Shown here: positions 6,020 to 21,172 of the stretch, piece by piece
How positions within the stretch are numbered: position 1 is the first letter of the stretch
Layout: each line of letters opens with the position of its first letter
Source of the DNA: Clostridia bacterium
GTDB lineage: Bacteria > Bacillota > Clostridia > Christensenellales > Aristaeellaceae
Direction of reading: 5' to 3'
DNA: 33,814 nt
NCBI GenBank assembly: GCA_017541205.1
Contig: JAFXZO010000062.1
Location: forward strand, 1-33,814
The notes under the pieces: generated by a model
Told to the model about the DNA's origin: nothing
The model's database searches: none
What the model saw: only the letters and a program-made list of their open reading frames with translations
Translations under genes and position numbers: made by a program

Positions 6020-8305
6020 GTGAAGAAGCTGTTATCCGCGCTGCTTTCGTTGATGACGGCCGTTTCCTTTTTGCATGTGTCCGTTCCGAGCGCTTCCGCA
6101 GAGCTGAAGGAAGTGACCATCCTGGCCTACGTCTGCGGGGCGGACCTGGAAAGCGAGGAAGGCGAGGCCACCGGCGATATCCGGGAAATGATCTCCTCCG
6201 GGATCGGTAATTCCAGCGCGGTGACGGCCCTCATTGCCACGGGCGGCTCCACCAAATGGCACAATTACGGCATTTCTTCCCGGTCGGTGCAGTATTATCG
6301 GCTGGGGGCCAAAAGCCCGGAGCTGATCAAGGATGTGGGCAAGCGCAGCATGGGCGAAGCGGACACGCTGAGCGATTTTCTGCAATTCGGCATTTCCGCC
6401 GCGCCTGCCAAAAGGTATATCCTGGTCCTTTGGGATCATGGCGGCGGGCCGGTATACGGCCTGTGCAACGATGCGAACTATCGGGACGACAGCCTCTCCC
6501 TTTCCGAATTGCGCAGCGGGCTGGAAAAGGGCCTTGGCGGCGTTAAGCTGGACATCATCGGCTTTGACTGCTGCCTGATGAACTGCGTGGACCTGTGCGC
6601 CGATCTGTACGGCATTGCGGACAACGCGGTGCTCAGCCAGGAATTGGTGAACGGCACGGGCCTAAACTATGACGCGTGGATCAAGCCCATCGTGGACGAT
6701 CCCGCCCTGTCCACCCAGAAAATCGCCATGGCGATGGCGGAAACCTATGTGGAGGAAAACGCCCGGGGCCGCAACGCCAGCACGGCCACCATGTCCGTGA
6801 TCGCCATGGACAAAATGCCCGCGGTCATGGATGCGGCCAACGCGTTCAGCAGCGCCCTGTCCTCCCTGATGAAGACCAATGCGGCGGCCGTGATCCGCCT
6901 GCGCGCGGGCCTGACCTCCTTTGGCGAGTTCGCGGATTACGACGCGTCCGACCTGGTGGACCTGGAGGATATGTGCGACGCGTTCTCCGCGCTGCTGCCG
7001 CAGGAATGCGAGGAGCTCAAAAAAGCGGCGCGGCAGGCGGTGTGCTACAACTGCACCACCAACGATATCGCCTCCTACGCGCACGGGCTGTCCTTCTTTA
7101 TGCCCTATGAGACCGTTCGCAGCGACGGCAAGGAGATCCTTTCGCATTACAACACGGAGGACAGCGCGTACGCCAGCCTGGCCGTCACGATGGCCAGCCA
7201 GACGACGATGGGCGGCTATTCCTTCTCCGCGTCCAACTATACCCCGTACAGCTTCTATACCTGCGATGACTATTACGCGGGCGGCGCCTGCTCCGGCGCG
7301 CTGTGCGATATCTGGGACGGGTATTACGGCGATTACTGGAGCTTTAACGATATGTACGGCTACTGCGGCGGCGATATCTGGGCCGGGCTGGACAGCGCGT
7401 CCGGCTCCGTCTGGAACGGGTATTCCACCTCTTCCGGCATCTGGGACGGCTATGGCGGCGCTTCCGCAAGCTCTGCCGGCGCCGAGACCACCGCCACCGG
7501 GATCTGGGCCGGCCTGAACGAGCCCGTCGCAACGCCCGAACCCGCTTCCGCGTCCACGGCGCTTGGCAATATCTGGGCCGGGCTGCTCAATACCGGCGCG
7601 GATTACTATCAGCCCGGCGAAGAGAACCAGAACGTCCAGGAAGGCGTGAGCGAAGCGGTGCCCGCGGAGACGGTGCTCGAGGAAGCGAGCAGCTATTTCG
7701 CCACCGCCACCCTCAGCGCGCAGATGATCTATTCCGTCCAGCTCAACAAAACGGACCTGGACCACCTGTCCACCGCCAGCGGCGTGCTCAGCGTCCAAAA
7801 GGGCGATGAAGTGATCCGCCTGGGCGACCTGGGAAAGACCACGGTGGACTGGTCAACGGGCCTGATCTTCTCCATGTTCGACGGTTCCTGGCCCATGCTG
7901 GGCGGCCAGATGGTGCGCGCGGAATTCCTGTACGGGGATGAAGCGGGCAACGTTCGCTTCGTCATTCCCGCACGGATCAACGGGCTTAAAATGTATCTGC
8001 TGGGCAACCACACCGCCGAAGGAAAAACGGAGCTGCTGGGCGCGACCCAGGGCTATGACGAGAACGGCTTCGCGATCCGCGGCTATATTGCCCTCGATGC
8101 GGGCATGACCATTTATCCCCTGTTCACCGCCGTTGGCGCGGACGGAAGCGAACGCGAATACACGGGCGACGCCATCACCGTTTCACAGGACGGCTTGCAG
8201 CTCACCTGGAGCCGGATCCCCAGCGGCAGCTATCTCTACTGCTTCGGCCTTGCGGACCTGTCCGGCCAGGTGCATTACACCGATTCGATCGCGATCAGCT
8301 TCTGA
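6020..8305 (+). CDS. Secreted clostripain-like cysteine peptidase (family C11)
   Basis: The 761-residue product begins with a signal peptide (cleavage after SASA). The catalytic His140 lies in LWDHGGG and the catalytic Cys185 in GFDCCLMNC, at the spacing seen in C11 peptidases (clostripain cleaves after Arg; PmC11 after Lys/Arg). Residues about 30-400 form the peptidase domain. Residues 430-523 carry six spaced copies of a motif of the form [I/V]W-x-G-[Y/L], with Trp at 432, 454, 465, 475, 496 and 519. About 200 residues at the C-terminus form an extra, strand-rich domain. The start is GTG 6020 with AAAGGAGG nine bases before it. It ends the secreted-protein operon and is followed by a strong terminator. 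Specificity is inferred from the family. Confidence 0.9.
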   Translation: MKKLLSALLSLMTAVSFLHVSVPSASAELKEVTILAYVCGADLESEEGEATGDIREMISSGIGNSSAVTALIATGGSTKWHNYGISSRSVQYYRLGAKSPELIKDVGKRSMGEADTLSDFLQFGISAAPAKRYILVLWDHGGGPVYGLCNDANYRDDSLSLSELRSGLEKGLGGVKLDIIGFDCCLMNCVDLCADLYGIADNAVLSQELVNGTGLNYDAWIKPIVDDPALSTQKIAMAMAETYVEENARGRNASTATMSVIAMDKMPAVMDAANAFSSALSSLMKTNAAAVIRLRAGLTSFGEFADYDASDLVDLEDMCDAFSALLPQECEELKKAARQAVCYNCTTNDIASYAHGLSFFMPYETVRSDGKEILSHYNTEDSAYASLAVTMASQTTMGGYSFSASNYTPYSFYTCDDYYAGGACSGALCDIWDGYYGDYWSFNDMYGYCGGDIWAGLDSASGSVWNGYSTSSGIWDGYGGASASSAGAETTATGIWAGLNEPVATPEPASASTALGNIWAGLLNTGADYYQPGEENQNVQEGVSEAVPAETVLEEASSYFATATLSAQMIYSVQLNKTDLDHLSTASGVLSVQKGDEVIRLGDLGKTTVDWSTGLIFSMFDGSWPMLGGQMVRAEFLYGDEAGNVRFVIPARINGLKMYLLGNHTAEGKTELLGATQGYDENGFAIRGYIALDAGMTIYPLFTAVGADGSEREYTGDAITVSQDGLQLTWSRIPSGSYLYCFGLADLSGQVHYTDSIAISF
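7305..7590 (+). repeat. Six spaced Trp-Gly repeats inside the C11 peptidase
   Basis: The DNA codes for six copies of a short motif: DIWDGY, DIWAGL, SVWNGY, GIWDGY, GIWAGL and NIWAGL. They are separated by Ser/Ala/Gly/Tyr-rich linkers of 4-17 residues. It is not a known catalytic element of C11 peptidases. A binding or surface-attachment role is possible but not shown. Confidence 0.8.
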
Positions 8306-8652: not shown

Positions 8653-8737
8653 GCTTCTTCCTCGGAAAAATGAACCCGCCCGGGCAGGGGGCCCGAGCGG
8701 GCGGAATCCATAGTTTATCGTATGATCGAATGAGAAG

Positions 8738-8772
8738 AAAAAAGCAGATGGTTTCATACCCCATCCGCTTTT
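8738..8772 (-). terminator. Rho-independent terminator of the PTS operon
   Basis: Read on the minus strand, AAAAGCGGATGG (8772-8761) pairs with CCATCTGCTTTT (8751-8740) through one G-U pair, and the T-run continues to 8738. It lies about 75 bases after the ptsI stop. A further 10-bp stem-loop (GGGGGAAACC at 8831-8822 with GGTTTCCTCC at 8798-8789) lies between it and the ptsI stop. Confidence 0.85.
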
Positions 8773-8846
8773 CTCGGAAGGGGGCCTGGAGGAAACCGCT
8801 CTTTGAGCTTCAAAGAAAGGTTTCCCCCAGCAAGTCTTCTAAAAGA

Positions 8847-10526
8847 TCAGATCGTGTTTTCGTCGCTGAGCAGGTCTGACAGCAGCTTTTCTTTGACGAG
8901 GGATACGTTGGTTTCCCGGATCTTTTGCCGAAGGGGCAGGACGGAGCGGGGAGAGACGGACAGTTCGTCGATGCCGATGGAGAGGAAGGTCTCCGTCAGG
9001 CTCAGATCAGCCCCGAGCTCGCCGCAGATGCCCACCCAGACGCCGTTCTTATGCGCGTTGTCGCAAACCATTTTGAGGGCGCGGAGCACGGCGGGATGAT
9101 GCGGGTTATAGAAGCGGCCCAGGTCCGCGTTCTGGCGGTCGCAGGCCAGGGTGTACTGGGTCAGGTCGTTGGTGCCGCAGGAGAAGAAATCCACTTCCTT
9201 GGCAAGCCGGTCGCTCATCAGCACGGCGGCGGGGGTTTCGATCATGATGCCGATCTCCACATCGTCGCTGAAGGGGATGCCCTCTCTGGTCAGCTCCTCC
9301 CGGACGCGCTCGCACATCTTCTTGGCTTCCTTCACTTCCCACACGCTGGTGACCATGGGGAACATGATGCCAAGCTTGCCGAACGCGCTGGCCCGGTACA
9401 GGGCGCGCAGCTGGGTATGGAAGATTTCGGGGCGGTTCAGGCAGATGCGCAGGGCGCGGTTGCCCAGGGCCGGGTTTTCTTCCTTGGGCATGTTAAAATA
9501 GCCGATCTGCTTATCCGCGCCGATGTCCAGCGTGCGGATCACCACTTCCTTGCCGCCCATATCGCTCAGGGCTTTTTTATAGGCTTCAAACTGGTAATCC
9601 TCGGTGGGATAATCGTCGCAGTTGAGATAGAGGAATTCGCTGCGGAAGAGGCCCACGCCGCCCGCGTCGTTGCCCAGCACCGCGGCAACATCATCGGGGG
9701 AGCCGATGTTGCAGTACACACGGATGCTTTGGCCGTCCAGCGTTTCATTGGGCTGGCCCTTCAGCTTTTCCAGCATTTCCCGCGTCTTTTTCTGCTCTTC
9801 CATCTTTTTGAGCAGATGGGCCTTCGTATCGGCGTCAGCCTCGATGACCACGCTGCCGGTGCTGCCGTCGATGATGACCTCGCGGCCTTCGTATTCGGGC
9901 TTCAGCTGATTGCCCACGCCGATGATGGCGGGGATGCCCATGGTGCGGGCGAGGATGGCGGTATGGCTGGAGCCGGAGCCGCCCTCGGTGATGAAGCCAA
10001 GGATCTTGCTCTTGTCCAGCTGCACCGTTTCGCTGGGGGCCAGATCATCCGCCGCCAGGATCACGGGCACGGGCGAATCAATGCCGCCCTGCACCACGCC
10101 GGTGAGCGCGGAAATGATGCGGCCGGATACGTCCTTCACGTCCGCGGCGCGGGCCTGGAAATACGCGTCCTCCATGGCGGCGAACATTTCGGCGAACTGC
10201 GCCGCGGTATCGGTCACGGCGGCCTCGGCGTTCAGCTTCGTTTCCTGGATGGCGGTCTGGATGGCTTCTTCGTATTCCATGTCCTCCGCCATCATTTGGT
10301 GGGTTTCAAACAGCAGCGCCGCTTCGTCGCCGGCCTCGGCGCGGGCCTTTTCGGCCAGTTCGCCCAGCTGCTCGATGGCCTTTTCCTGCGCGGCCTTGAA
10401 GCGCGTCCATTCGGCGTCCGTATCCTCCACCTCATAGCGGCGAATGGTGGATTTCGCGCGTTGATAGAAGTACAGCGGGCCGAGGGCTACGCCGGTGGAT
10501 ACGCCTTTTCCTTGAATGGAGATCAT
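8847..10526 (-). CDS. ptsI: PTS Enzyme I (phosphoenolpyruvate-protein phosphotransferase)
   Basis: The 559-residue protein autophosphorylates from phosphoenolpyruvate and passes the phosphate to HPr. The N-terminal phosphohistidine is His188 in GSGSSHTAILART; E. coli EI uses His189. The PEP-binding domain has GLFRSEFLY, IMIETPAA, GTNDLTQYTLACDR and the catalytic Cys in GICGELG, all as expected. Length matches the family (about 570). ATG 10526 is preferred over the upstream in-frame starts because GAGGAGGAGG precedes it. It is the last gene of the scrA-ptsH-(secreted)-ptsI unit. It is unusual for EI to sit in a sugar-specific locus with a secreted-protein gene between it and HPr. Confidence 0.97.
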   Translation of the reverse strand: MISIQGKGVSTGVALGPLYFYQRAKSTIRRYEVEDTDAEWTRFKAAQEKAIEQLGELAEKARAEAGDEAALLFETHQMMAEDMEYEEAIQTAIQETKLNAEAAVTDTAAQFAEMFAAMEDAYFQARAADVKDVSGRIISALTGVVQGGIDSPVPVILAADDLAPSETVQLDKSKILGFITEGGSGSSHTAILARTMGIPAIIGVGNQLKPEYEGREVIIDGSTGSVVIEADADTKAHLLKKMEEQKKTREMLEKLKGQPNETLDGQSIRVYCNIGSPDDVAAVLGNDAGGVGLFRSEFLYLNCDDYPTEDYQFEAYKKALSDMGGKEVVIRTLDIGADKQIGYFNMPKEENPALGNRALRICLNRPEIFHTQLRALYRASAFGKLGIMFPMVTSVWEVKEAKKMCERVREELTREGIPFSDDVEIGIMIETPAAVLMSDRLAKEVDFFSCGTNDLTQYTLACDRQNADLGRFYNPHHPAVLRALKMVCDNAHKNGVWVGICGELGADLSLTETFLSIGIDELSVSPRSVLPLRQKIRETNVSLVKEKLLSDLLSDENTI

Positions 10527-10573
10527 GGGAATCCTCCTCCTCAACTTTCATTTGCTTATGCCGGTTTGGAGCG

Positions 10574-11194
10574 TTACAGCCAGAAATAATTCAGCAATGC
10601 CTGCTCCGCGGCTTCCAAATTTTCGGCGGTGGCGGTAATGGTGATCATGTACTTGTTCTGCAAAAAGGAAAACTGGATCGCGGCGATATCGATAATGCCC
10701 ATGAAGCTGTATTCGATGCGGTAGCAGGCCATATCGCGGCCGTCGACGGTGATGCTGGATATTTCAAACGAATTGACGGTCAGACTGGCGGCGTTCAGGT
10801 TTTGCTTGATTCCGTCAGCCTGCGATTCATAGAACGCTTTCATACCCAGCACTTCCAGGATCAGGGCATTGGTTCCAAGATACGTCACTTCGGCGCCGAC
10901 ATTGTCAAACCCGTTCGACGCTGTGGCGCGCATGATCGTCACCGTGCCGAGCTCTTCCAGATTTTTTACCGAATCTTCTTCCATCATGGCTTTGGCGAGT
11001 TTATCGGTGCTGTCCAGCTCTTCCTGTGAGGAGTACTTCCAGCCTTCCCCGCGGAAGCCAAAGCCCATATACGCGTTGGAATAGGTATCTCCTTCGATCA
11101 CGCCCATGGCTTCCGACAGCGTCGCCTCTGAGAACGCATGGAAGGCGGCGAACAGCAGCATCAGCGCCAGGGAAAACGAGAGCAGCTTTTTCAT
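10574..11194 (-). CDS. Secreted protein of unknown function between ptsH and ptsI
   Basis: The 206-residue protein starts with MKKLLSFSL and has a signal peptide ending near AFHAFSEA, so it should be exported. After it, NAYMGFGFRGEGWKY matches the opening of PsbP/DUF1795-like small secreted domains common in clostridia (compare the proteins at 4819 and 5430). The C-terminal half alternates strands and ends NYFWL. No catalytic motif is visible. The frame is open back to 11332, but the signal peptide and a weak AAGGGACGG upstream fix the start at 11194. It lies 73 bases after ptsH (with a strong hairpin between) and 47 before ptsI, in the same direction. No PTS role is known for such a protein. 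Confidence 0.7.
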   Translation of the reverse strand: MKKLLSFSLALMLLFAAFHAFSEATLSEAMGVIEGDTYSNAYMGFGFRGEGWKYSSQEELDSTDKLAKAMMEEDSVKNLEELGTVTIMRATASNGFDNVGAEVTYLGTNALILEVLGMKAFYESQADGIKQNLNAASLTVNSFEISSITVDGRDMACYRIEYSFMGIIDIAAIQFSFLQNKYMITITATAENLEAAEQALLNYFWL

Positions 11195-11227
11195 GGTGTT
11201 CCGTCCCTTCTTTTGTTCAAATACAGC

Positions 11228-11256
11228 GGACGGCTGTCCATGGGGGACAGCCGTCC
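11228..11256 (-). other. 12-bp perfect hairpin just after ptsH
   Basis: GGACGGCTGTCC (11228-11239) and GGACAGCCGTCC (11245-11256) form a perfect stem with a five-base loop. On the minus strand it is followed by GCTGTATTTG, which is not a clean U-tract. It is best read as an mRNA 3'-end stabiliser or partial terminator that lets more HPr than EI be made. Confidence 0.65.
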
Positions 11257-11267
11257 ACAGGATCGAT

Positions 11268-11525
11268 TTACAGATTGGCCTTGAAGAACGCTTCGATGGC
11301 GGCGGCGGCGGTGTCTTCGTCCGCGCCCTCAATGGTGACCTTCACGGTGTCGCCCTGCTTGATGCCCATGCCCATGAGGGCCATGAGCTTCAAGGCGTTC
11401 ACGGATTTTTCACCCTTGGCCACGGTGACGGTGGACGTATACTTTTTGATCTCCTTGACCAGGACGCCGGCGGGACGGGCATGGATGCCCACAGGATCGG
11501 TGATGGTGTACTCGAAAGACTTCAT
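11268..11525 (-). CDS. ptsH: HPr phosphocarrier protein with Lys at position 46
   Basis: The 85-residue protein carries phosphate from Enzyme I to EIIA. The phosphohistidine is His15 in DPVGIHARPAG. The second family signature normally reads VN-A-K-S-I-M, with Ser46 as the target of HPr kinase. Here it reads SVNALKLMALMGMG, so Lys occupies position 46 and no Ser aligns. This protein therefore should not form HPr(Ser-P), the usual coregulator of catabolite repression in Bacillota. Length and the rest of the fold are normal. AAGGAGG before ATG 11525 is strong. It lies between scrA and a secreted-protein gene, and hairpins flank it on both sides. Confidence 0.95.
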   Translation of the reverse strand: MKSFEYTITDPVGIHARPAGVLVKEIKKYTSTVTVAKGEKSVNALKLMALMGMGIKQGDTVKVTIEGADEDTAAAAIEAFFKANL

Positions 11526-11548
11526 GGACTGTTCCTCCTTCTATTTTG

Positions 11549-11563
11549 TTCCGCTTCGCGGAA
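11549..11563 (-). other. Short hairpin in the ptsH leader
   Basis: TTCCGC (11549-11554) and GCGGAA (11558-11563) form a 6-bp stem with a three-base loop, 12 bases upstream of the ptsH ribosome site. The rest of the scrA-ptsH gap holds a GGGGGAAACC element similar to one after ptsI and a CGGAG/CTCCG hairpin. No second promoter is convincing. Confidence 0.45.
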
Positions 11564-11654
11564 GTTCATTCAGTGTACGGAAAAATGTACGATCAAAATA
11601 CAGCTTTCTTGGAAGGGTTTCCCCCGGAGAACTCCGTTCCCCGTTCTTCCGTCC

Positions 11655-13823
11655 TTACTTCGCGCCGCACTCGACGCCTTCCAGGTCGTCGGAGTTGGTG
11701 AGCAGCACGGCCACGGTATCGCTGTAGCCGGCGGCCTTGATCTTGGCGCGGTCAAAGATGATGAGGGGCTGGCCCGCCTTCACTGCGTCGCCTTCCTTGA
11801 CCAGGCAGGTGAAGCCGTCGCCCTTCATGTTCACGGTATCCACGCCCACGTGGATCAGCATTTCCATGCCGTTTGCTTCGATGCCGACCGCGTGCTGGCT
11901 TTCCGCGACGGAGGAGATGGTGCCGTCGAAGGGGGCGACCACCTTATCGTCGCTGGGCTGGATGCCGACGCCGTCGCCCAATACGCCGGAGGCGAAGGTA
12001 TCGTCGGGGATCTGGTCCCGGGCGATCACGGCGCCCTTGACGGGCTGGAGCACGTTGCCCGCGGCGCAGCGGATGACGCTGACGGTGGGCACTTCGATCG
12101 CAGGCGCTGCGGGCGCGGCGGCAGCGGCCTCCGGCTGCTCTTCCTTCCAGATCGCGGTGGTGAGCGCAAAGGCGACGCCGGCGGCGATCAGGAGCTCCAC
12201 GATGTACATCAGGGTATTGTTCACGGCGGGGATGCCGGGGATGCCGGTGACGCCGTAAGTGGTGGCGCCGAAGGCCACGGTTTCGCCCGCGGCGTTGGTG
12301 CCGTGCAGGAAGGTCGCGAACAGGGAGCCCGCCGCGCCGCCGACCATGCCGCAGATGAAGGGCTTCATGAAGCGGAAGTTGATACCGAAGATGGCCGGCT
12401 CCGTGATGCCCAGGGAGGCGGACAGGGAGGAGGGCAGGGCAACGGACTTGGTCTTCTGGTTGCGCACCTTGAGCGCCACCGCCAAGCAGGCGCCGAACTG
12501 GGCAAAGTTGGCGGCGGAGGCGATGGGCATCCAGGTGTTGACGCCGGTGGAGGCGATCATGCCTGCTTCAATGACGTTGAACATATGGTGCAGGCCCATG
12601 ACCACCGTCCAGGGATAGATGGCGCCCATGACCGTCGCGCCGATACCGCCCGTCTTGGTGACCAGCCATTCGGCGCCTGCCAGCACCCAGTTTTCCAGGA
12701 TGGAGAAGATCGGGCCGATGATCATGAAGGTGACGAAGGCCGTGACCAGCACGGTGCACAGCGGCGTCACAAACAGGTCGATCATTTCCGGCACATGCTT
12801 ATGCAGCCACTTCTCGATCAGGCACATGAACCAGACCGCCAGGATCACGGGGATCACGTGGCCCTGATAGCCGACCTGGGAGATGCCGATGCTGCCAAAG
12901 AGGTTCCATTTTTTGATGCCGCCCACTTCTTCGACGGTGTGGTTCGCTTTGATATGCTCCCAGATCCCGTCGGAGAGGCTCAGCGCTGCGTCCGGATCGT
13001 CTGCCGTCGGGCGGGGGAAGGAGGGCATGCTGCTCAGCTGCGTGGGCGCGATGTTGCCGTCCACCGTGCCGTCCAGGCCGTCCAGGGTGGTCAGATAGGC
13101 GTCCAGGCTGCCTCCCGGCAGGAGCAGAATCTCATCCTCCGTCAATTCGAGGCTGCCCATGGCGTCCCGCACATATTCCACGGAGATTGGCTCGTTAAAT
13201 TTGAGCGACACCTCCTTCACGTTGCCGGCGTTCCAGGCATTCAGCAGGGCGGGATGCACCAGCATCAGGCCGATGACGGCGCCCAGGAAGATATTGCCGC
13301 CGAAAACGCGGGCCGCGGAAATGGCGACCAGCACGGGCAGCAGGGCAAACGCGGTGTTCGCGACCAGATCCAGGAAGGCGAACCAGCCGGTATTCGCAAA
13401 GGCGGGCCAGAATTTCGGGATCGCTTCGACCAGACCCATCATGAGGCCCGAGGCCACGATGGCGGGCAGGATGGGAACGAAGATGTCGCCCGGGGTTTTG
13501 AGGATCTTCTTCCACCAGGGCATCTTGGAGGCGGCCGCCGCCTTCACATCGTCCTTGGTGGCGGCGGAAGCGCCGGTCACGGACAGGAATTCATCGTAGA
13601 CCTTGTTGACCGTGCCGGTGCCGATGATGAGCTGCAATTGTCCGTTGGACTCGAACATGCCCTTCACGCCGTCCACGTTCTCCAGGGCTTTCTTGTTCAC
13701 CTTGCCGTTGTCCGCGATGACCAGGCGGAGTCTGGTCGCGCAGTGCGCCGCGCTGATGACGTTGGAACCGCCGCCGATATTGGCCGCGATTTCCTCAGCG
13801 CATTTTCTGTAGTCGAGCGCCAT
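11655..13823 (-). CDS. scrA: Sucrose-type PTS transporter EIIBCA with a large EIIC insertion
   Basis: The 722-residue permease should import and phosphorylate sucrose (product sucrose 6-phosphate). Residues 1-85 are EIIB with Cys28 in SAAHCATRLRLV, the sucrose-subgroup form (trehalose EIIB has THCVTRLRF). Residues about 105-580 are EIIC with many membrane spans. Residues about 590-722 are EIIA (Crr-like), with His658 in LIHVGVD and a second His in SQHAVGIE. The usual EIIC reads from the segment HPALLNA almost directly to WNLFG; here about 105 residues (201-305), acidic and Pro-rich in part, are inserted. AAGGAGGG precedes ATG 13823. It has its own promoter and heads the ptsH-ptsI unit. Sugar specificity is inferred from sequence and neighbours. 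Confidence 0.9.
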   Translation of the reverse strand: MALDYRKCAEEIAANIGGGSNVISAAHCATRLRLVIADNGKVNKKALENVDGVKGMFESNGQLQLIIGTGTVNKVYDEFLSVTGASAATKDDVKAAAASKMPWWKKILKTPGDIFVPILPAIVASGLMMGLVEAIPKFWPAFANTGWFAFLDLVANTAFALLPVLVAISAARVFGGNIFLGAVIGLMLVHPALLNAWNAGNVKEVSLKFNEPISVEYVRDAMGSLELTEDEILLLPGGSLDAYLTTLDGLDGTVDGNIAPTQLSSMPSFPRPTADDPDAALSLSDGIWEHIKANHTVEEVGGIKKWNLFGSIGISQVGYQGHVIPVILAVWFMCLIEKWLHKHVPEMIDLFVTPLCTVLVTAFVTFMIIGPIFSILENWVLAGAEWLVTKTGGIGATVMGAIYPWTVVMGLHHMFNVIEAGMIASTGVNTWMPIASAANFAQFGACLAVALKVRNQKTKSVALPSSLSASLGITEPAIFGINFRFMKPFICGMVGGAAGSLFATFLHGTNAAGETVAFGATTYGVTGIPGIPAVNNTLMYIVELLIAAGVAFALTTAIWKEEQPEAAAAAPAAPAIEVPTVSVIRCAAGNVLQPVKGAVIARDQIPDDTFASGVLGDGVGIQPSDDKVVAPFDGTISSVAESQHAVGIEANGMEMLIHVGVDTVNMKGDGFTCLVKEGDAVKAGQPLIIFDRAKIKAAGYSDTVAVLLTNSDDLEGVECGAK

Positions 13824-13901
13824 TCAGGGATCCCTCCTTTTTAATTTTCCATTTCTTGTCATATTTGGAACAAAACCAGACAAATCTGCACGGATATAGA
13901 T

Positions 13902-13930
13902 ATTATACTGGATTCTTTGCCTGTTGTAAA
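13902..13930 (-). promoter_or_regulatory. Sigma-A promoter of scrA-ptsH-ptsI
   Basis: On the minus strand TTTACA (13930-13925), 17 bases, TATAAT (13907-13902): close to consensus. It lies in an AT-rich 140-base gap about 80 bases upstream of scrA. I see no antiterminator (RAT-type) hairpin in the leader, nor a clear LacI-type palindrome. Confidence 0.8.
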
Positions 13931-13965
13931 TGGATAATTATTGCCTATTTTGCACAAAAGAGCAA

Positions 13966-14790
13966 TCAGATCAAGCCGAGCTTTTGGAAGGCCCAGGCGA
14001 GGCCGTCGTCCTCCACGGCGGGACAGACCAGATCGCTGCGTTCCTTGAGGGCGGGGCTTCCATTTTCCATGCAGACGGAATAGCCGACGGTTTCGATCAT
14101 TTCCAGGTCGTTCATGCTGTCGCCAAAGCCGATGGTATCTTCAAGGCCCAGGCCGTAATGGTCCGCCACGATCTTGACGCCCCGGCCCTTATCGAACTTG
14201 CGGTTGATGAGCTCGCCGTTGAGGCACTGATAGGCCGCCACGTCCTGCACCACAAAGTTGAAATCCTTTTCCAGCGCGGCCCTCGCGGGCATGAGCTGCT
14301 CCTTGGTCTTGCACATGAACACGATCTTATAGACGGGCCGCCCGTCGTATTCCTTCATGGGCAGGATGTTCAGCTGCTCGGCCAGGGCTTTGCGCCAGCG
14401 CACCAATTCGCTGTTGCCCTCGCCGGCCTGGGCCAGGAATTCGCCCAGGTCCTCGTCGCCCCAGGTGGCGTCCTTGGCCTCGATGGTGCGGAAGACGCCG
14501 TTTTCTTTGAGCAGGCGCATGCCCGTTTCAAATTGTTCCTTCGTCATGGGGCAGTCAAAGAGCACCTCGTCGCCCGCGAACACATAGCCGCCGGCGCCGG
14601 CGACGGCCCCTTCAAAGCCGAGCGCCAGCACGGGGGCCAGCATGGCGGGGTTGCGCCCGGTGCACAGGAACACCTTGTGGCCGTTTGCCTGCGCCTTGCG
14701 GATGGCGTCCATGGCGCTTGCAGGCGGGTTATTGCTGCCCGCGGGGGTCAGCGTGCCGTCGATATCCAGAAAAATCAGTTTCTGCGTCAT
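13966..14790 (-). CDS. HAD-superfamily sugar phosphatase (type IIB, Cof/SPP-like)
   Basis: The 274-residue protein has all HAD motifs: I LDIDGT (Asp9 and Asp11), II FLCTGRN, III the Lys region in DKGRGVK and IV GFGDSMND. The large cap between motifs II and III is of the C2B type, as in Cof-type phosphatases and sucrose-6-phosphate phosphatase. Such enzymes hydrolyse sugar phosphates in the cytosol. The start (ATG 14790) follows TAAGGAGG, only 11 bases after the GH13 gene, so the two are cotranscribed. Placed between a GH13_4 enzyme and a sucrose PTS, it is a candidate for removing phosphate from incoming sucrose 6-phosphate. Substrates of the family are broad, so a general sugar-phosphate role is equally possible. 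Confidence 0.85.
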   Translation of the reverse strand: MTQKLIFLDIDGTLTPAGSNNPPASAMDAIRKAQANGHKVFLCTGRNPAMLAPVLALGFEGAVAGAGGYVFAGDEVLFDCPMTKEQFETGMRLLKENGVFRTIEAKDATWGDEDLGEFLAQAGEGNSELVRWRKALAEQLNILPMKEYDGRPVYKIVFMCKTKEQLMPARAALEKDFNFVVQDVAAYQCLNGELINRKFDKGRGVKIVADHYGLGLEDTIGFGDSMNDLEMIETVGYSVCMENGSPALKERSDLVCPAVEDDGLAWAFQKLGLI

Positions 14791-14801
14791 GTCAATCCTC
14801 C

Positions 14802-16646
14802 TTAAAAGGTATGCAGGAGCCAGCGGAAGCCGTGCGGCGGCAGGACGACCCGTCCGGCGTCCGCCCTTCCGCCGTCGATCAGGTCAACATAGGATTTTTC
14901 ATCTCTGAGCCAGGCGGTTTTTTCCTCCGCGCTGAAGTTGAACAGGGCCAGGAGCTGTTCGCCCCGGTAATAGCGCCCGATGCCCAATACCTGATCGCTG
15001 CCGGTATCCAGCAGCCAGGTATCCGCATCGGTATCGAAAACGGCGTGATGGGCCCGCTGCTGCTCCATATTGGTGATGGCGGAAAAAACCTTGCTCTCCG
15101 GGGTATCCTTTTGATTGCGAAGCTCCACCTTTTCCCAGTCCAGATCGCCGCGGTGCAGGTAGCGGCTGTCCTCGCGCTTCAAGGGATCGTCGTGGTACGT
15201 GCAGTCGTTCTCCTGGGCGATTTCGTCGCCGCTGTAGAGGACCGGCACGCCGCTTAACGTAAACATGAAGGCGTGCAGCATGGCGTCCGTACGGACGGCC
15301 TCCTCCATGGCGTTTGCATCGCCGCTTTCGCGCGCGGCCTGGATGCCGCACAGGCTGGCTGTGGTGCCGCAGAGCCTGGCGTCGCCAAGGCGCGGATCGT
15401 TGTTGTACAATTCGCCCCGGGCCTGGCTGCCGGGCCAGGCGCCGGTCAGGTAATCGTTCAGGTACTTCTTATGCGGCACTTCCTCCTGGCGGAACTGACG
15501 CAGGAACGCGTAATCCAGGCCCCAGCCGATATCGTCATGGCAGCGCAGATAGTTGAGGAAGGTATAAGCCTTGGGCAGGGAGAACACCTGCTCCAATTGA
15601 TGCCTCAGCAGCCGCACGTCCCTCGTGGCCACGGTGTGCCAGATGGTCGCCATGGTGGTCACGTTATAGAGCAGATGGCATTCCGGCTTTTCCACGGACC
15701 CAAAGTAGGGCACCACCTTGCTGGGCTCCATGACCACCTCGCCCAGCAGCAGCGTACCGGGGCAGACGATCTCGCATACCATGCGCATCATGCGCACCAG
15801 CACATGCACCTGCTTCAGGTTCCGGCAATTGGTGCCCAGCGCCTTCCAGATGTAGGGCACCGCGTCCAGGCGGATGACGTCCACGCCGTGGTTGCACAGG
15901 TTCAGCATGTTGTCCGTCATATCGTTGAAGACGGTGGGGTTGGCGTAATTCAGATCCCACTGGTAGGGATAGAAGGTGGTCATGACCACCTTTTTCGCTT
16001 CCTCGCACCAGGAAAAGTTGCCCGGCGCGGTGGTGGGGAAGACCTGGGGAACGGTCTGTTCAAAGGCGTTGGGCAGCGTCCAGTCGTCGAAGAAGAAATA
16101 GCGGTCCTGGTATTCCTTTTCCCCGGCCCTGGCGCGGCGCGCCCATTCGTGATCCTCGCTGGTGTGGTTCATCACAAAATCCAGGCAAACGGCGATGCCG
16201 CGCTCGTGGCAGTCGTCGGCCAGGGCGGCCAGATCCTCCATGGTGCCAAGCTCGGGCTGCACCTTGCGGAAATCGCTCACCGCGTAGCCGCCGTCGCTTC
16301 GGCCTTCGGGGCTTTCCAGCAAGGGCATCAGGTGCAGGTAATTCACGCCGCAGTCCGTGATGTAGTCCAGCTTTTTTCTCACGCCCTGCAGATTGCCCGC
16401 AAAGGCGTTCACGTACATCAGCATGCCTACCAGGTCGTGCCCTTTGTACCAATCCGGAAATTCCTCCCGGGCCCGGTCCATCAGTTTGAGCTTTTCAGAG
16501 CGTTCCTCCCACAGCCGGTAGAGCATGTCCACAAAATAGTCGTAGGCCCTCTGGTCGTTGTGGTACAGCTCGCAGTACAGCCATTTCAACTCGTCTTCAT
16601 GACGGCGGAAACGGGAGGCAAACTCGGGTAGCCAATGGTTTTTCAC
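14802..16646 (-). CDS. GH13_4 amylosucrase-like / sucrose hydrolase-like enzyme
   Basis: The 614-residue protein follows the amylosucrase pattern from end to end, including the N-terminal helical region with LMDRAREE. Catalytic residues are nucleophile Asp261 (IRLDAV), acid/base Glu303 (LLGEVV) and transition-state His370-Asp371 (RCHDD). The spacing matches Neisseria amylosucrase, where the nucleophile-to-acid distance is likewise 42. DGGYAVSDFRKVQPELGTM is diagnostic. Family members act on sucrose, transferring glucose to glucan or to water and releasing fructose. No signal peptide, so it is cytosolic. The start is GTG 16646, which overlaps the fructokinase stop (GTGA) and has AGGAGGG upstream: tight translational coupling. 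Whether it takes sucrose or sucrose 6-phosphate is open. Confidence 0.9.
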   Translation of the reverse strand: MKNHWLPEFASRFRRHEDELKWLYCELYHNDQRAYDYFVDMLYRLWEERSEKLKLMDRAREEFPDWYKGHDLVGMLMYVNAFAGNLQGVRKKLDYITDCGVNYLHLMPLLESPEGRSDGGYAVSDFRKVQPELGTMEDLAALADDCHERGIAVCLDFVMNHTSEDHEWARRARAGEKEYQDRYFFFDDWTLPNAFEQTVPQVFPTTAPGNFSWCEEAKKVVMTTFYPYQWDLNYANPTVFNDMTDNMLNLCNHGVDVIRLDAVPYIWKALGTNCRNLKQVHVLVRMMRMVCEIVCPGTLLLGEVVMEPSKVVPYFGSVEKPECHLLYNVTTMATIWHTVATRDVRLLRHQLEQVFSLPKAYTFLNYLRCHDDIGWGLDYAFLRQFRQEEVPHKKYLNDYLTGAWPGSQARGELYNNDPRLGDARLCGTTASLCGIQAARESGDANAMEEAVRTDAMLHAFMFTLSGVPVLYSGDEIAQENDCTYHDDPLKREDSRYLHRGDLDWEKVELRNQKDTPESKVFSAITNMEQQRAHHAVFDTDADTWLLDTGSDQVLGIGRYYRGEQLLALFNFSAEEKTAWLRDEKSYVDLIDGGRADAGRVVLPPHGFRWLLHTF

Positions 16647-17584
16647 TGTAATCCCTCCTGTACTTCTTGCAGCGTCGGCATGGCCGGGATAGCGCCGCGG
16701 CGGCTGGTGGTGATGGACGCGGCTTTATTGGCGAAGCGGACGAACGCGTTGATCTGATCGGCGGTCAGGCCGTCCAGGCCGCCGTGCGCGGCGATCCGGC
16801 TCAGGAACGCGCCGAAGAAGGTGTCCCCGGCGCCGTTGGTGTCCGCCACCTTGACGGGGCAGCCCGGCGCCCGGCCCTGCAAATCTCCGCAGCGCCACAT
16901 CGCGCCGTCGGGGCCCAGGGTGACCACGGCCAGCCTCACGCCCAGCGCCATCAGCTTATCGAGCGCTTCCTCGGGCGCTTTGACGCCGCAAAGCAGCGTC
17001 GTTTCCTCATCGCTGATCTTGACGATGTCGCAAAGCGGCAGCACGGCGCGCATTTGCAGGACGGCCGCATCCTCGTGTTCCCAAAGCGCCGCGCGGTAAT
17101 TGGGGTCGTAGGTGATGAGCGCGCCGTCGTTTTTCGCCGCCTGCACGGCGGTGATCACGGCGTCCCGGCAGACGGGATCGGTCAGGCTGACGCTGCCAAA
17201 ATGCAGGATGCCCGTGCCGCGCGCCGCCCGGATCGCCTCCGCCGCGTCGATCATGGTATCCGCGCCCGGCTTGCGGTAAAAGGAAAAGCTGCGTTCGCCG
17301 GCCGGGTCCACCGTCACGATGGCGAGGGTGGTATTGGCTTTGCCCGTCACCTGCAGGCCGTCCGTGGATACGCCGAAGCGGGTCAGCGTGTCCCGAAGCA
17401 GGCGGCCGTACGCGTCGTCGCCGACGCAGCCGATGAACCCGGCTTCGATCCCGAGCTTCGCGGCCGCCACGGCCACGTTGGCCGGCGCGCCGCCCGGATT
17501 GGCCGCAAAATGCGGGATGCCGTTTTCATCGATGTGCGTTTGGGTCATATCGACCAGGATCTCTCCGATGGATGTGATCTTCAC
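16643..17584 (-). CDS. scrK: Fructokinase, PfkB family
   Basis: The 313-residue protein has the PfkB N-terminal signature GGAPANVAVAAAKLG and the C-terminal catalytic signature DTNGAGDTFFGAF, whose last Asp is the base. It also has the start pattern ITSIGEILVDM typical of fructokinases. It should phosphorylate free fructose with ATP to fructose 6-phosphate. The open frame begins upstream with TTG at 17617, but the family normally begins at the ITSIGE strand. GTG 17584 with AAGG seven bases before it is the likely start. It is first gene after promoter 17685-17713 and overlaps the GH13_4 gene by four bases, matching a role in using the fructose that enzyme releases. Confidence 0.92.
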   Translation of the reverse strand: MKITSIGEILVDMTQTHIDENGIPHFAANPGGAPANVAVAAAKLGIEAGFIGCVGDDAYGRLLRDTLTRFGVSTDGLQVTGKANTTLAIVTVDPAGERSFSFYRKPGADTMIDAAEAIRAARGTGILHFGSVSLTDPVCRDAVITAVQAAKNDGALITYDPNYRAALWEHEDAAVLQMRAVLPLCDIVKISDEETTLLCGVKAPEEALDKLMALGVRLAVVTLGPDGAMWRCGDLQGRAPGCPVKVADTNGAGDTFFGAFLSRIAAHGGLDGLTADQINAFVRFANKAASITTSRRGAIPAMPTLQEVQEGLQ

Positions 17585-17684
17585 ATACTCACCTTCCCTA
17601 TATGTTTTTGAATCCAATTGCGTGTGGCACAGCCGGAGCGTCCGGGGAAAGGAAGACCTTGTTCATTTGTGTTTTATTAATACC

Positions 17685-17713
17685 ACTATACCATACTTGA
17701 TCGGGCTTTGCAA
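17685..17713 (-). promoter_or_regulatory. Sigma-A promoter of scrK-GH13-HAD
   Basis: On the minus strand TTGCAA (17713-17708), 17 bases, TATAGT (17690-17685). The -35 abuts the T-run of the upstream peptidase terminator. The transcript leader is about 95 bases. No strong palindrome for a LacI-type repressor is evident. Confidence 0.75.
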
Positions 17714-17764: not shown

Positions 17765-20700
17765 TTATTGCAGGAGATTGTTCAGGTTGAGGAGCGATTG
17801 CGCCAGCTCGCCGCGGGTCATGGGCTGATCCGTGATTTCGCAGACCGAGCCGTTTTCCAGGGGGAACTGCATGAGCGCGAAGAGCTGGACGACGATCTGA
17901 TCGCAGTCCGCGAAGGTGATCGGCGTATCCACGGTATAGTCGGCGGGCACCAGGCCGTAGGAGGCAAAGAATTCCGTCGCTTCTTCCGGCGCGTTCGCGG
18001 GGCCGCCGGCAAAGACGTACAGCGCGCCGCACAGATCGCCCACCGTGGCGGGATCCTCCACGCCGAATGTATCCTCGCCCTTGGCGGCCATCAGGCCGTT
18101 TTCAAAGACAAAGCGCACGGCGTCATAGTATTCGCTGCCTTTCGGCGCGTCGGTGAGCTCCACCTGGGAGGCGTCCGCGGCGTTGAAGGGATTGAGGATC
18201 ACATCGTACAGGTCGGCGTTCGCGTTGATGGCGGCGGCGCTGCCCGCGGTGGAGTGCACGCCGTTTTCCCAGGCTTTCCGGTAAATCTCGGCGGCGGCCT
18301 TCACGGTGTCGGGCGTGACGGCCTTGAGCTGGCGCATATAGTCCAGAAACCGGTCCAGCTTCTTTTCGTTCAGCGTGTCCGAAATCGCGCTGACCGCGCC
18401 CGCCAGCTCGCCCTGGGGCTTGGCCAGGCCGGAATAAGTGCTCATGATGTAGCCGTCCAGGGTATCCTGGTCCACGTCCATCTGGGCGATGATGTCCGAA
18501 AGGGAAGCGTACACATCGAAGGTTTCCTTCACGTTCGGGTCGCGGTAGGAAAGCAGGTACATGGCGCCGTTCTTTTCCACCATTTCGTTTACCGGCGTGT
18601 ATACGCCCATCTGGTCGCGCAGGATGGGCATCAGCACCTGGTCGCTCACCAGCGATGTGATGGCGGACAGGCCCGCGTCGTATTCGGTCAGGCCCATATC
18701 GTCAAGCGTGGCGATTACATTGTTGTACTGGATGTTGCCATCCACGATCAGGGCTTCCCGCTGCGCGCCCACGGGCAGGTCATACACGGCGGCTTCCCGC
18801 TCCACGTGGTCCAGCTTCGCCATGAAGGCGTCGGCCAGAGGACGGTTCAATTCGATACTCTGCTCATTGCCAGCGAAAGTGGCGATAGCGCCCGCGTTGT
18901 TATGGAAGAAGGATTGGATGGCTTCAAAGTGCTTCGTCACTTCTTCGGGGTTTTCGCTCAGCTGGGTTTCCAGGTTTTCCAGGAAAGCGTAGTAATCCAG
19001 GAAGTTCAAGTAGTTATAATAACGGTAGAAAGGAGAGTTGTCCGCCATGCCGCGGTACAGCATGATGTTGTAAGCGCTGCTGTTGATGGTGGCGCGCACG
19101 GAGGTTTTCTGGGCCTGCACCTGCTCCATCAGCTTCTGGGTGTCGTCGAAGCGGGTCTGGAAGAGCAATTCTTCCATCAGGTCATAGCCTGCGGCCAGGT
19201 CGTCGTCCAGGGCATACCATTCGGCCACCAGGTACGGATGAATGGCGTCGGTCATGTCCGCAGTTTCGACACCGGTGGTTTTGTTATACAGGTAGCGGCT
19301 AATGAGCACATCCAGTTCTTCCTTGGTGTGCCTGTCGGTGTCCAATTGGCCCAGCAGACGGGTGAAGAGGCGCATCCAGTGAATGTCCTCCTGGGGCAGC
19401 GCGGCGGCGTCCAGCTTGAGGGACACAGAACCGATGCCGTCCACGCCCGCGGGCACTTCGATATGGCGGATGCCGTTTTCGTCGGTAAAGTCATTGACCG
19501 TGTAGGTTTTGATCTCCTCGGGCAGGCTGTCCACGGTGACGGCCTTGATCTTCGCCATCAGTTCGGTGTTGTCCTCTTCCTTGGCCGGAGCGTTGGTTTC
19601 ATCCACGATGGCCTGCAGCTCTTCCTGCGTCATGCCGGCCTTGATTTCAGCCAGCTTCGCCTTCAGGGCCTCGTCCTGTTTTTCCTTCTCGCCGGGGGCG
19701 GGATAGGTGGTGGTGAGGGTGTAGAGCTTCTTGTCCGCCAGCCACTTCGCGGCCGCTTCCTTCAGCAGCCCGTCCCGGTTTTCCCGGTCGATGGCGGACA
19801 GGGAGTCAACGTAATCGACGTAGCTGAAAGGATCGCCTGTAACGGCGTATTGGTATGCGATGTTGCTCATCACGCCTTCAACGGGGTTGCCGCTTTCAGG
19901 CGCCAGCTTGGTGGAGATGTTCAGGCTGGTCATGGCGCTGTCCACCATATCCTGGGGGAAGCCGTTTTCAGCCACGTTCCTAAGCGCGTCGTCCACCAGC
20001 GCCTTGAACGGCTCGGCGTCGCCCCGGTTCATGCCGGAAGCCACGAAAACGATGGCGTCGTCCGGCGCGGCCAATTCGCGGCCGCAGCTGACGGAACCGG
20101 CGGGGAACGCTTTCTTGAAGCTCTGCTGCAGGGTGGAGGCATTTTCATTCAGCATGAGGCATACGTGATCGATCAGGTTTTCCTGCGCGGTGTCGCCCTT
20201 CATGCCGGGGCAGAGAATATAGTAGTAGATCACGGTCTGGTTGGTCACGTCCGTCCCTTCGGCCATGGGGAAGCCGAACTCGGCGGACACAGCTTCGGTG
20301 ATGGGGGCATAACCGGCGTCCTCAAAGGTGAATTCCGCCTTTTCATAAGGCGCGAAGGCTTCGTCCAGCAGGGAAAGGAAGGCGGCGTAATCCTCGATCT
20401 GGCCGTAGAGAACGGCGAAGCAGTTGGAGGGATGATAGTATTTGTCGTGGAAGTTCTTTACATCCTCATACGTCATTTCCGGAATGTTCTGTGGCATGCC
20501 GCCCTGGTTGAAGCTGAGCGTGGCGCCGGGGAAGGTGCGCTTGTTGGCGTTCTGCAGCGCCGCGCGGGCAAGCGTGATGGCGCCCTGCATTTCGCTGTAC
20601 ACAACGCCCTCGTAGGTCAATTCGCCGTCCAGGTCAGGCAGGTTATAATGCCACGCCTGGGTCTTGAAGATGCCCTCATCCGTCATGATGAGCGGATGGA

Positions 20701-21172
20701 AGCAGGAGTCCACATAGTAATCCGCCAGGCCCAGCAGCTGCGTTTCGGACAGGGAAGCGACGGGATAACTGGTGCAGGCGTCGAAGGTATAGGCGTTTAT
20801 GAGGGTATTGTAGGTTTGGTAGTTGATATTGAAGAACAGGGAAGTAGAGGGATACTTCTCCGACCCGAAAAGGGTGGCGTGTTCAAACACATGGGGCAGG
20901 CCGGTATCGTCGCTGGGCCGGGTGGGGAAGGTCAGCTGGAATGCCCGGTTGGTATCTTCATTGGCGATCCAGAGGAGCTTTCCGCCGGTTTTCTGATGCT
21001 CGAACAGCACCAGCTCCGCGCCGATCAGCGGGAAATCGCGGATTTCCTTCACTTCAAAACCGTTCACCACCTCGCCGACGGCGGGCAGCGCGTTGTCCGC
21101 CGCTTCGGCAAGCGCCGGCACGGCGCCAAGCAGCAGCGAAAGGATCAACAGAATGGACAGGACTTTTTTCAT
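17765..21172 (-). CDS. Secreted M16C (PreP/Cym1-like) metallopeptidase with S-layer-like C-terminal repeats
   Basis: The 1135-residue protein has a signal peptide (MKKVLSILL to PALAEA). The zinc site is the inverted motif HVFEH (His94, Glu97, His98), with the third ligand Glu194 in GVVYSEMQGA, as in M16C presequence proteases. An active N-terminal M16 half, a linker domain and an inactive C-terminal half run to about residue 1000, matching PreP length. The last 130 residues are extra: YYDAVRFVFENGLMAA and PMTRGELAQSLLNL look like degenerate S-layer homology repeats, which would tether it to the cell wall. PreP-type enzymes degrade short peptides inside a closed chamber. GGGAGGAAT supports the start. 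It is monocistronic, with its own promoter and terminator. Confidence 0.9.
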   Translation of the reverse strand: MKKVLSILLILSLLLGAVPALAEAADNALPAVGEVVNGFEVKEIRDFPLIGAELVLFEHQKTGGKLLWIANEDTNRAFQLTFPTRPSDDTGLPHVFEHATLFGSEKYPSTSLFFNINYQTYNTLINAYTFDACTSYPVASLSETQLLGLADYYVDSCFHPLIMTDEGIFKTQAWHYNLPDLDGELTYEGVVYSEMQGAITLARAALQNANKRTFPGATLSFNQGGMPQNIPEMTYEDVKNFHDKYYHPSNCFAVLYGQIEDYAAFLSLLDEAFAPYEKAEFTFEDAGYAPITEAVSAEFGFPMAEGTDVTNQTVIYYYILCPGMKGDTAQENLIDHVCLMLNENASTLQQSFKKAFPAGSVSCGRELAAPDDAIVFVASGMNRGDAEPFKALVDDALRNVAENGFPQDMVDSAMTSLNISTKLAPESGNPVEGVMSNIAYQYAVTGDPFSYVDYVDSLSAIDRENRDGLLKEAAAKWLADKKLYTLTTTYPAPGEKEKQDEALKAKLAEIKAGMTQEELQAIVDETNAPAKEEDNTELMAKIKAVTVDSLPEEIKTYTVNDFTDENGIRHIEVPAGVDGIGSVSLKLDAAALPQEDIHWMRLFTRLLGQLDTDRHTKEELDVLISRYLYNKTTGVETADMTDAIHPYLVAEWYALDDDLAAGYDLMEELLFQTRFDDTQKLMEQVQAQKTSVRATINSSAYNIMLYRGMADNSPFYRYYNYLNFLDYYAFLENLETQLSENPEEVTKHFEAIQSFFHNNAGAIATFAGNEQSIELNRPLADAFMAKLDHVEREAAVYDLPVGAQREALIVDGNIQYNNVIATLDDMGLTEYDAGLSAITSLVSDQVLMPILRDQMGVYTPVNEMVEKNGAMYLLSYRDPNVKETFDVYASLSDIIAQMDVDQDTLDGYIMSTYSGLAKPQGELAGAVSAISDTLNEKKLDRFLDYMRQLKAVTPDTVKAAAEIYRKAWENGVHSTAGSAAAINANADLYDVILNPFNAADASQVELTDAPKGSEYYDAVRFVFENGLMAAKGEDTFGVEDPATVGDLCGALYVFAGGPANAPEEATEFFASYGLVPADYTVDTPITFADCDQIVVQLFALMQFPLENGSVCEITDQPMTRGELAQSLLNLNNLLQ

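Follow-up and report, generated by a model that had tools for sequence, protein, structure and literature searches.

Genes for sucrose import by a phosphotransferase system (PTS) are generally taken to supply a GH32 sucrose-6-phosphate hydrolase with its substrate, and the genes of the classical locus carry the names scrA-scrB-scrK. Here we examine a locus with a different gene content on a contig of a Clostridia bacterium (JAFXZO010000062.1, assembly GCA_017541205.1; its 33,814 nucleotides, the whole stretch analyzed, are called the window below), in which a sucrose-like PTS stands with a fructokinase (FRK), a GH13_4 enzyme of the amylosucrase or sucrose hydrolase type and a HAD phosphatase. 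The classical scr locus and the window locus have in common a sucrose-type EIIBC, a fructokinase and, as we read the latter, import of the sugar as a phosphate ester. Whereas the classical locus has GH32, the window locus has GH13_4 and HAD genes instead, plus its own HPr and Enzyme I (EI) in the operon, and no match to the GH32 profile PF00251 was found on the window's contig.

Each component of the locus has a known counterpart, and both halves of the pathway proposed below have precedents. In Enterococcus faecalis maltose is imported by a PTS and the phosphatase MapP then acts on the PTS product (PMC3737437, in an excerpt citing Mokhtari 2013); PTS import followed by a phosphatase is the order proposed here, with maltose as the sugar there. 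The Synechococcus PCC 7002 operon spsA-sppA-frkA-amsA combines a sucrose-phosphate phosphatase (SPP), a fructokinase and an amylosucrase, as given in the accessible part of PMC11046441, and its phosphatase is also a HAD-IIB protein according to an excerpt of PMC9971976. In that operon, however, the sucrose phosphate comes from synthesis and not from a PTS, and the phosphatase belongs to the SPP family rather than to the Cof family found here. The fructan cluster of Faecalibacterium prausnitzii contains amylosucrase, fructokinase, ABC transporter and GH32 genes, and E. coli expressing the F. prausnitzii amylosucrase degraded sucrose (PMC8894670, in extract). As in the window locus, the amylosucrase and fructokinase genes of this gut clostridium neighbour those of a sugar transporter, but the transporter is of the ABC type instead of a PTS, and the gene list in that extract shows no phosphatase. 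Ruminococcus gnavus has a PTS plus GH32 as well as a GH13_18 phosphorylase (PMC6521584, in the portion available); this sucrose 6F-phosphate phosphorylase is also a GH13 enzyme of phosphorylated-sucrose metabolism, but it is of another subfamily, catalyzes another reaction and has the phosphate on the fructose side. A search of the open-access literature by titles and starts of abstracts, with most subscription journals outside its reach, returned no description of the gene set. The arrangement is real and conserved, and it appears to be a new, undescribed arrangement of sucrose PTS catabolism; within the literature searched this agrees with a preliminary description of the window, made from its letters alone, which knew of no pathway of this form.

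All genes of the locus lie on the minus strand and would be transcribed in the order FRK, GH13_4, HAD, EIIBCA, HPr, a 206-amino-acid open reading frame (ORF) and EI. The features are as follows.

17685..17713, minus strand: promoter-like site of unit 1 (FRK-GH13_4-HAD), 9/12
16643..17584, minus strand: fructokinase (FRK), PfkB family, GTG start (PF00294, 208 bits)
14802..16646, minus strand: GH13_4 enzyme (amylosucrase or sucrose hydrolase type), 614 amino acids
13966..14790, minus strand: Cof-type HAD-IIB phosphatase, 274 amino acids, catalytic motifs intact (PF08282, 170 bits; TIGR00099; alignment; fold)
13902..13930, minus strand: promoter-like site of unit 2 (EIIBCA-HPr, possibly EI), 11/12
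11655..13823, minus strand: PTS EIIBCA, 722 amino acids, nearest to sucrose-specific EIIBC (PF00367, PF02378, PF00358, TIGR01996)
12927..13217, minus strand: insert of about 95 amino acids within EIIC, after VHPALLNAWNAG, seen as a gap in the alignment to an insert-free relative
11268..11525, minus strand: HPr with active-site His15 and Lys at position 46 (PF00381, 99 bits)
11226..11258, minus strand: terminator-like hairpin 3' of HPr, 14 pairs
10574..11194, minus strand: secreted or lipoprotein-like ORF of 206 amino acids between HPr and EI (ORF call)
8847..10526, minus strand: Enzyme I (ptsI), 559 amino acids (TIGR01417, 602 bits, cut-off 341.7)
8674..8702, minus strand: terminator-like hairpin 3' of EI

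The start of the GH13_4 gene overlaps the FRK stop by 4 bases, and 11 bases separate the GH13_4 stop from the HAD start. ORFs, profiles and promoter-like sites bear out the earlier claim that fructokinase, GH13_4, HAD, EIIBCA, HPr and EI follow one another in two promoter-led units.

We read the locus as a sucrose-uptake operon in which a phosphatase, replacing or accompanying GH32, would deal with the disaccharide phosphate, so that dephosphorylation would precede cleavage, and from the sequence evidence we give this reading a probability of roughly 60%. EI, HPr and EIIBCA would import sucrose as sucrose 6-phosphate, and the Cof-type HAD phosphatase would strip the phosphate, leaving free cytoplasmic sucrose. 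From this the GH13_4 enzyme would take the glucosyl part, by hydrolysis to glucose or by transfer to an alpha-glucan such as glycogen, and the fructose it releases would be converted by the fructokinase to fructose 6-phosphate. The gene set, the conservation of the block, the intact catalytic residues, the sucrose-like EIIBC and the GH13_4 found in each GH32-free HAD genome can be read directly from the genomes; which sugar is carried, what the HAD protein acts on and in which order the steps follow we infer. The preliminary description had offered two routes, the phosphatase acting first with GH13_4 on free sucrose, or GH13_4 acting on sucrose 6-phosphate itself, and the former is the better supported of the two.

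The gene block is widely conserved. A scan for the HAD protein, with each species represented by a single genome, yielded 172 relatives. The 80 best loci were retained, and gene counts in these HAD-anchored loci rest on tblastn. The triad GH13_4-HAD-EIIBCA was present in 53 of the 80 (GH13_4 at most 1.3 kb upstream and EIIBCA at most 3.1 kb downstream, on the same strand), under the record labels Clostridia, Lachnospiraceae (Oribacterium and others), Eubacteriaceae, Oscillospiraceae, Erysipelotrichaceae (Solobacterium) and Spirochaetota; metagenome assemblies make up the bulk of these records, so individual taxon labels may be wrong. Isolates that carry the locus include Oribacterium sp. C9 and P6A1 and Eubacterium ruminantium FB3002. 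The full order FRK-GH13_4-HAD-EIIBCA-HPr-EI was seen in genomes G083, G011 and G116, and in G100 GH13_4-HAD closes one contig while EIIBCA-HPr-EI opens another. Our sets of loci (L) and genomes (G) overlap (L124=G083, L159=G116, L169=G011, L150=G100, L135=G243, L138=G357, L149=G226, L186=G158). Across a 150-genome family sample, GH13_4 relatives of at least 46% identity occurred in 43 genomes (one as a short fragment), EIIBCA orthologues in 12 (with a remnant in G112), the HAD protein, at E 1e-40, in 13, and GH32 in 95. HAD and EIIBCA were found together in 8 of the 150 genomes against 1.0 expected (Fisher p 1.1e-7), HAD and GH13_4 in 11 against 3.7 (p 1.9e-5), and EIIBCA and GH13_4 in 10 against 3.4 (p 6.7e-5), all three p values being uncorrected for kinship. 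Counted from the transporter, 16 genomes have a close EIIBCA (12 of the 150 and 4 further of 396, namely the genomes of L135, L138, L149 and L186). The HAD gene is linked to it in 11 of these (inferred across contig ends in G100, and with two genes between in G056), with GH13_4 also in 9; each of the five in which HAD is not linked carries a GH32 gene somewhere, which adjoins EIIBCA in two. The gene order, whose recurrence the preliminary description had left to be examined, was thus found both in the triad loci and in the EIIBCA-anchored genomes, and the possibility that the locus is unique to this genome was rejected.

Variant forms of the locus were also noted. In L041 (G112) the EIIA end is all of EIIBCA that stands between GH13_4 and the HPr and EI genes, and a search of the genome gave no GH32; HAD and EIIBC appear to have been deleted there, or lost in assembly. 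By eye, a glycerate-2-kinase-like gene lies between HAD and EIIBCA in L111, L121 and L123 and after HAD in L120, and a GntP-like permease is also in the locus in L111 and L123.

The HAD protein scores 141 bits with TIGR00099, above the cut-off of 137, which places it among the Cof-type HAD-IIB proteins. It falls short of the SPP model TIGR01482 (65 bits, cut-off 107.15); with the Pfam S6PP profile it scores 37 bits and passes the cut-off of 20.3, but Hydrolase_3 scores 170. Its catalytic motifs are invariant in 34 aligned sequences, out of 79 full-length relatives found. By fold it is nearest to two uncharacterised HAD-IIB proteins (3fzq and 2pq0) and next to the sugar-phosphate phosphatase BT4131, and its TM score with SPP (1s2o) is only 0.50-0.56. 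A different HAD-IIB-like protein was seen by eye in G108 (L117:10976-11740, +), after the GH32 gene that adjoins EIIBCA. For the fructokinase the best NCBIfam model is PRK09434, at 205 bits, under its cut-off of 450.

Among the PTS proteins, the EIIBC part of EIIBCA appears sucrose-like by its nearest model: TIGR01996 (sucrose) is the top model overall with 506 bits, 141 bits beyond the next best. Two insert-free relatives score 508 and 512 bits with the same model. EIIBCA ORFs longer than 660 amino acids occur in 11 HAD-anchored loci (9 shown with the insert at the equivalent place) and in G056, most others being shorter. Relatives of EIIBCA are linked to sucrose genes, in that GH32 adjoins it in G108 and G146, and the more distant EIIBCAs of G255 and G346 (53% identity) also have an adjacent GH32, while the sequence read around them (only 4.5 kb in one case) contains no HAD and no GH13_4. 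Trehalose was rejected as the PTS substrate, since the trehalose model gives 365 bits against 506 for sucrose and related EIIBCAs adjoin GH32 genes; transport of this sugar, which the preliminary description had named as a finding that would overturn the pathway, is therefore unlikely.

The earlier suggestion that this may be the organism's only PTS stands for the EIIC class of PF02378, for which a profile search of the window's genome gave one match only, that of EIIBCA. PF00381 has three matches in the genome, and the two outside the window begin at profile positions 18-19, past the active-site histidine. By eye, one of them (G000:C116, L007:3302-5261) is a 334-amino-acid ORF that follows a WhiA-like gene and whose HPr-like domain looks fused to a nucleotidyltransferase; the other (G000:C87, L008:580-807) is a 75-amino-acid HPr-like protein that lacks the active histidine and comes after the end of an apparent PEP carboxykinase gene. 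Ser46 of HPr is the regulatory site for HprK-type control. The window HPr carries Lys rather than Ser there, like 48 of the 51 HPr rows compared across these loci, so that HprK-type regulation through this HPr seems impossible.

The GH13_4 enzyme is homologous over its whole length to solved amylosucrase and sucrose hydrolase members. With Tyr147 and Phe250, which we take to belong to the pocket, and with the NpAS pocket numbering presumed to map onto the window enzyme as we have aligned it, the catalytic Asp286 and Glu328 and the pocket make up 12 residues. All 12 are present in the window enzyme and in 57 of 57 PTS-linked relatives, rows that include three duplicates, G112 with its EIIA remnant only, and L146 and L181 with a partner gene on the other strand. 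They are identical in 31 of 32 GH13_4 enzymes from genomes without this EIIBCA, the sole deviating row (FL079, from G109) being on a long branch, and in 7 and 6 further enzymes from genomes with EIIBCA elsewhere; none is among the 20 positions that differ most between the PTS-linked and EIIBCA-less sets. The list of NpAS pocket residues is from an excerpt of PMC6949346, which prints the +1 pair as Arg394/Asp446 (taken here as Asp394/Arg446) and describes a pocket shaped by an Asp144-Arg509 salt bridge. Because the pocket is unchanged with or without the PTS, nothing in it suggests that the enzyme was retuned for a phosphosugar. On the GH13_4 tree PTS-bearing and PTS-less forms are mixed, the absence of EIIBCA requiring 17 changes, at least 11 of them forced by supported branches; this is a quick tree, and missing assembly pieces would add false changes to it. 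The label for absence of EIIBCA ("noEII") comes from the family-sample EIIBCA search for 30 of 32 rows and from a later genome check for two, and a "linked" label (18 changes) was not used because it scored some contig-edge loci as unlinked and set the window row apart. The six spirochaete-labelled rows form one supported group within the clostridial tree (SH-aLRT 99), the pattern expected from a transfer. The GH13_4 model, which has low confidence around the active site and was used for fold only, matches amylosucrase and sucrose hydrolase structures equally well; the enzyme may be a hydrolase or a glucan-forming polymerase. Its assignment as a GH13_18 sucrose phosphorylase was rejected (TIGR03852, 67 bits against a cut-off of 334.4). 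The window's genome holds a second, decayed GH13_4 copy (G000:C16, L080:9146-10525, +), not among the compared pocket rows, which adjoins ABC-transporter-like genes; 156 window positions have no counterpart in it, its nucleophile is Glu and its acid/base is Gly. It sits in the synteny slot that holds an intact FRK-GH13_4 pair in G094 and G134 of the same genus.

The preliminary description had reported no GH32, which is correct for the locus and for other genomes with the same locus, but not for this genome. The window's genome (84.86% complete) has one GH32 (PF00251), unlinked on contig C1, and the possibility that the genome lacks GH32 was accordingly rejected. This protein passes the cut-off of the sucrose-6-phosphate hydrolase (scrB-family) subfamily with 430 bits against 356.4, and its neighbours, judged by eye, include GNAT-like, NUDIX-like and FeoB-like proteins, with no sugar transporter recognised among them. 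Relatives of it (77-86% identical, some cut by the contig or locus end) lie 2.9-9.8 kb from HAD in nine other loci. A GH32 regulated together with scrA had been named as evidence that would refute the pathway, and this proximity, which might allow co-regulation, goes part of the way towards it.

Twenty of 50 HAD-locus genomes searched have no GH32, including all six spirochaete-labelled ones; the 50 are drawn from the 80, and as the omitted 30 include 12 of the 13 loci where GH32 had already been seen, 20/50 is not a rate for all 80. GH13_4 is present in every one of the 20 GH32-free genomes, in the locus in 17 and elsewhere in three (L141, L145 and L174, in the last as two fragments). No sucrose phosphorylase scored above the TIGR03852 cut-off in 22 distinct genomes (24 handles, the window's included) in a search that did not extend to other alpha-glucosidases, and none of 14 control genomes passed that cut-off either. 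Eighteen HAD genomes lack a same-strand adjacent GH13_4 in the stretch around HAD that was covered, and 15 of them have the gene elsewhere (divergently in the same locus in L146). The three without GH13_4 in the genome are L130 (HAD-EIIBCA), whose genome was not part of the GH32 search, and L152 and L165, where GH32 takes the place of GH13_4, 49 and 57 bases before HAD, in the order GH32-HAD-EIIBCA. All HAD-bearing genomes that were searched for both enzymes therefore carry GH13_4 or GH32, as would be expected if HAD dephosphorylates the product of the PTS and the sucrose-splitting enzyme acts on the sugar set free by HAD.

The presence of GH32 leads to a different explanation, in which GH32 performs ordinary sucrose-6-phosphate hydrolysis and GH13_4 with HAD forms a side branch that stores glucan or recycles leaked sucrose. 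This would fit the scrB-family GH32 of this genome, the GH32 genes near HAD in nine relatives' loci, the EIIBCAs that adjoin GH32 without HAD in G108 and G146, and the intracellular glycogen made by amylosucrase in Neisseria (PMC11046441, in the part accessible). We consider it unlikely in view of the 20 genomes, all six spirochaete-labelled ones among them, in which the locus must work without GH32 unless the assemblies are incomplete; with GH32 in the window's genome and near HAD in nine relatives, both routes may run side by side. The second route of the preliminary description, with GH13_4 itself splitting sucrose 6-phosphate to glucose 6-phosphate and fructose and HAD working elsewhere, for example in relieving sugar-phosphate stress, would avoid the loss of the phosphate. 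There are GH13 enzymes that use sucrose phosphates (the GH13_18 sucrose 6F-phosphate phosphorylase, in the available portion of PMC6521584), and HAD also occurs in genomes without this PTS. An enzyme specific for a phosphorylated glucosyl group should, however, differ near that group from its PTS-less relatives, and the 12 positions do not separate the two sets, although a relevant change elsewhere in the pocket could be missed. The invariant amylosucrase pocket and the mixed tree disfavour this route, which we regard as quite improbable. Finally, EIIBCA might carry another sugar, with GH13_4 and the fructokinase serving sucrose from another transporter. In keeping with this, EIIBC is under the sucrose-model cut-off, a glycerate-kinase-like gene stands between HAD and EIIBCA in the three loci noted above, and G094 has HAD-EIIBCA-HPr-EI and FRK-GH13_4 apart, each beside ABC-transporter-like genes (by eye). 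The 141-bit lead of the sucrose model, the GH32 genes adjoining both close and 53%-identical EIIBCAs and the operon fructokinase, which fits a fructoside, make this explanation very improbable indeed.

Several observations weigh against dephosphorylation before cleavage as the function of the locus. HAD-IIB phosphatases are often promiscuous, and the EIIBC part reaches 506 of the 559.3 bits required by the curated sucrose model. Dephosphorylation would discard the phosphate paid for by the PTS, with the loss of one high-energy bond if glucose is rephosphorylated, and the GH32 of the window's genome, like those near the locus in nine relatives, could split sucrose 6-phosphate directly. The HAD-anchored loci are by construction biased towards HAD, and at E 1e-40 such a HAD is missing from four of the family-sample genomes that carry EIIBCA. 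One in-frame stop interrupts the EIIBCA match in each of two spirochaete genomes (L158 and L164). HAD also occurs without EIIBCA in 10 genomes, made up of 5 of the 13 HAD-bearing family-sample genomes and 5 of 13 EIIBCA-less HAD-anchored loci (the 21 genomes checked for EIIBCA include two, L181 and L185, that already showed it in the locus), and in these HAD cannot serve this PTS. GH13_4 is present in nine of the 10, in one of them as a fragment, and it adjoins HAD in G091, G054, L120 and L168; the G091 assembly (two contigs, 97% complete) makes incompleteness an unlikely cause of the absence of EIIBCA. There HAD must act on another substrate, be a relic, or possibly process sucrose phosphate that the cell synthesizes, by analogy with cyanobacteria.

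Other features of the window are noted briefly. The locus is flanked by a clostripain-family (C11) protease (6020-8305, +) and a PreP-like M16C protease (17765-21172, -), and the 206-amino-acid ORF (10574-11194) has a 34% relative at the equivalent place in L127. A receiver domain ahead of the helix-turn-helix is the usual order in response regulators; the small protein at 2733-3341 (+), beside a histidine kinase, has the reverse, with the helix-turn-helix domain first.

A more extended interpretation, which we hold as tentative and on balance doubtful, is that the locus forms a mobile sucrose PTS module, made self-contained by an EI of its own and an HPr without the regulatory Ser46, in which the phosphatase would restore sucrose and the amylosucrase would build storage glucan without an ATP-costing nucleotide sugar; if true, sugar taken up by the PTS would pass straight into glycogen in rumen Clostridia and spirochaetes. 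The conservation of the block across two phyla of gut bacteria, together with the GH32-free genomes, would surprise a specialist. If phosphatase-first sucrose use is correct, many gut and rumen bacteria would connect their PTS to an amylosucrase-type enzyme by way of a phosphatase, and metabolic models of these uncultured groups would be wrong on the required enzyme, on energy yield and perhaps on glycogen. A clade of amylosucrase homologues would gain a physiological role, and an orphan HAD phosphatase a likely substrate.

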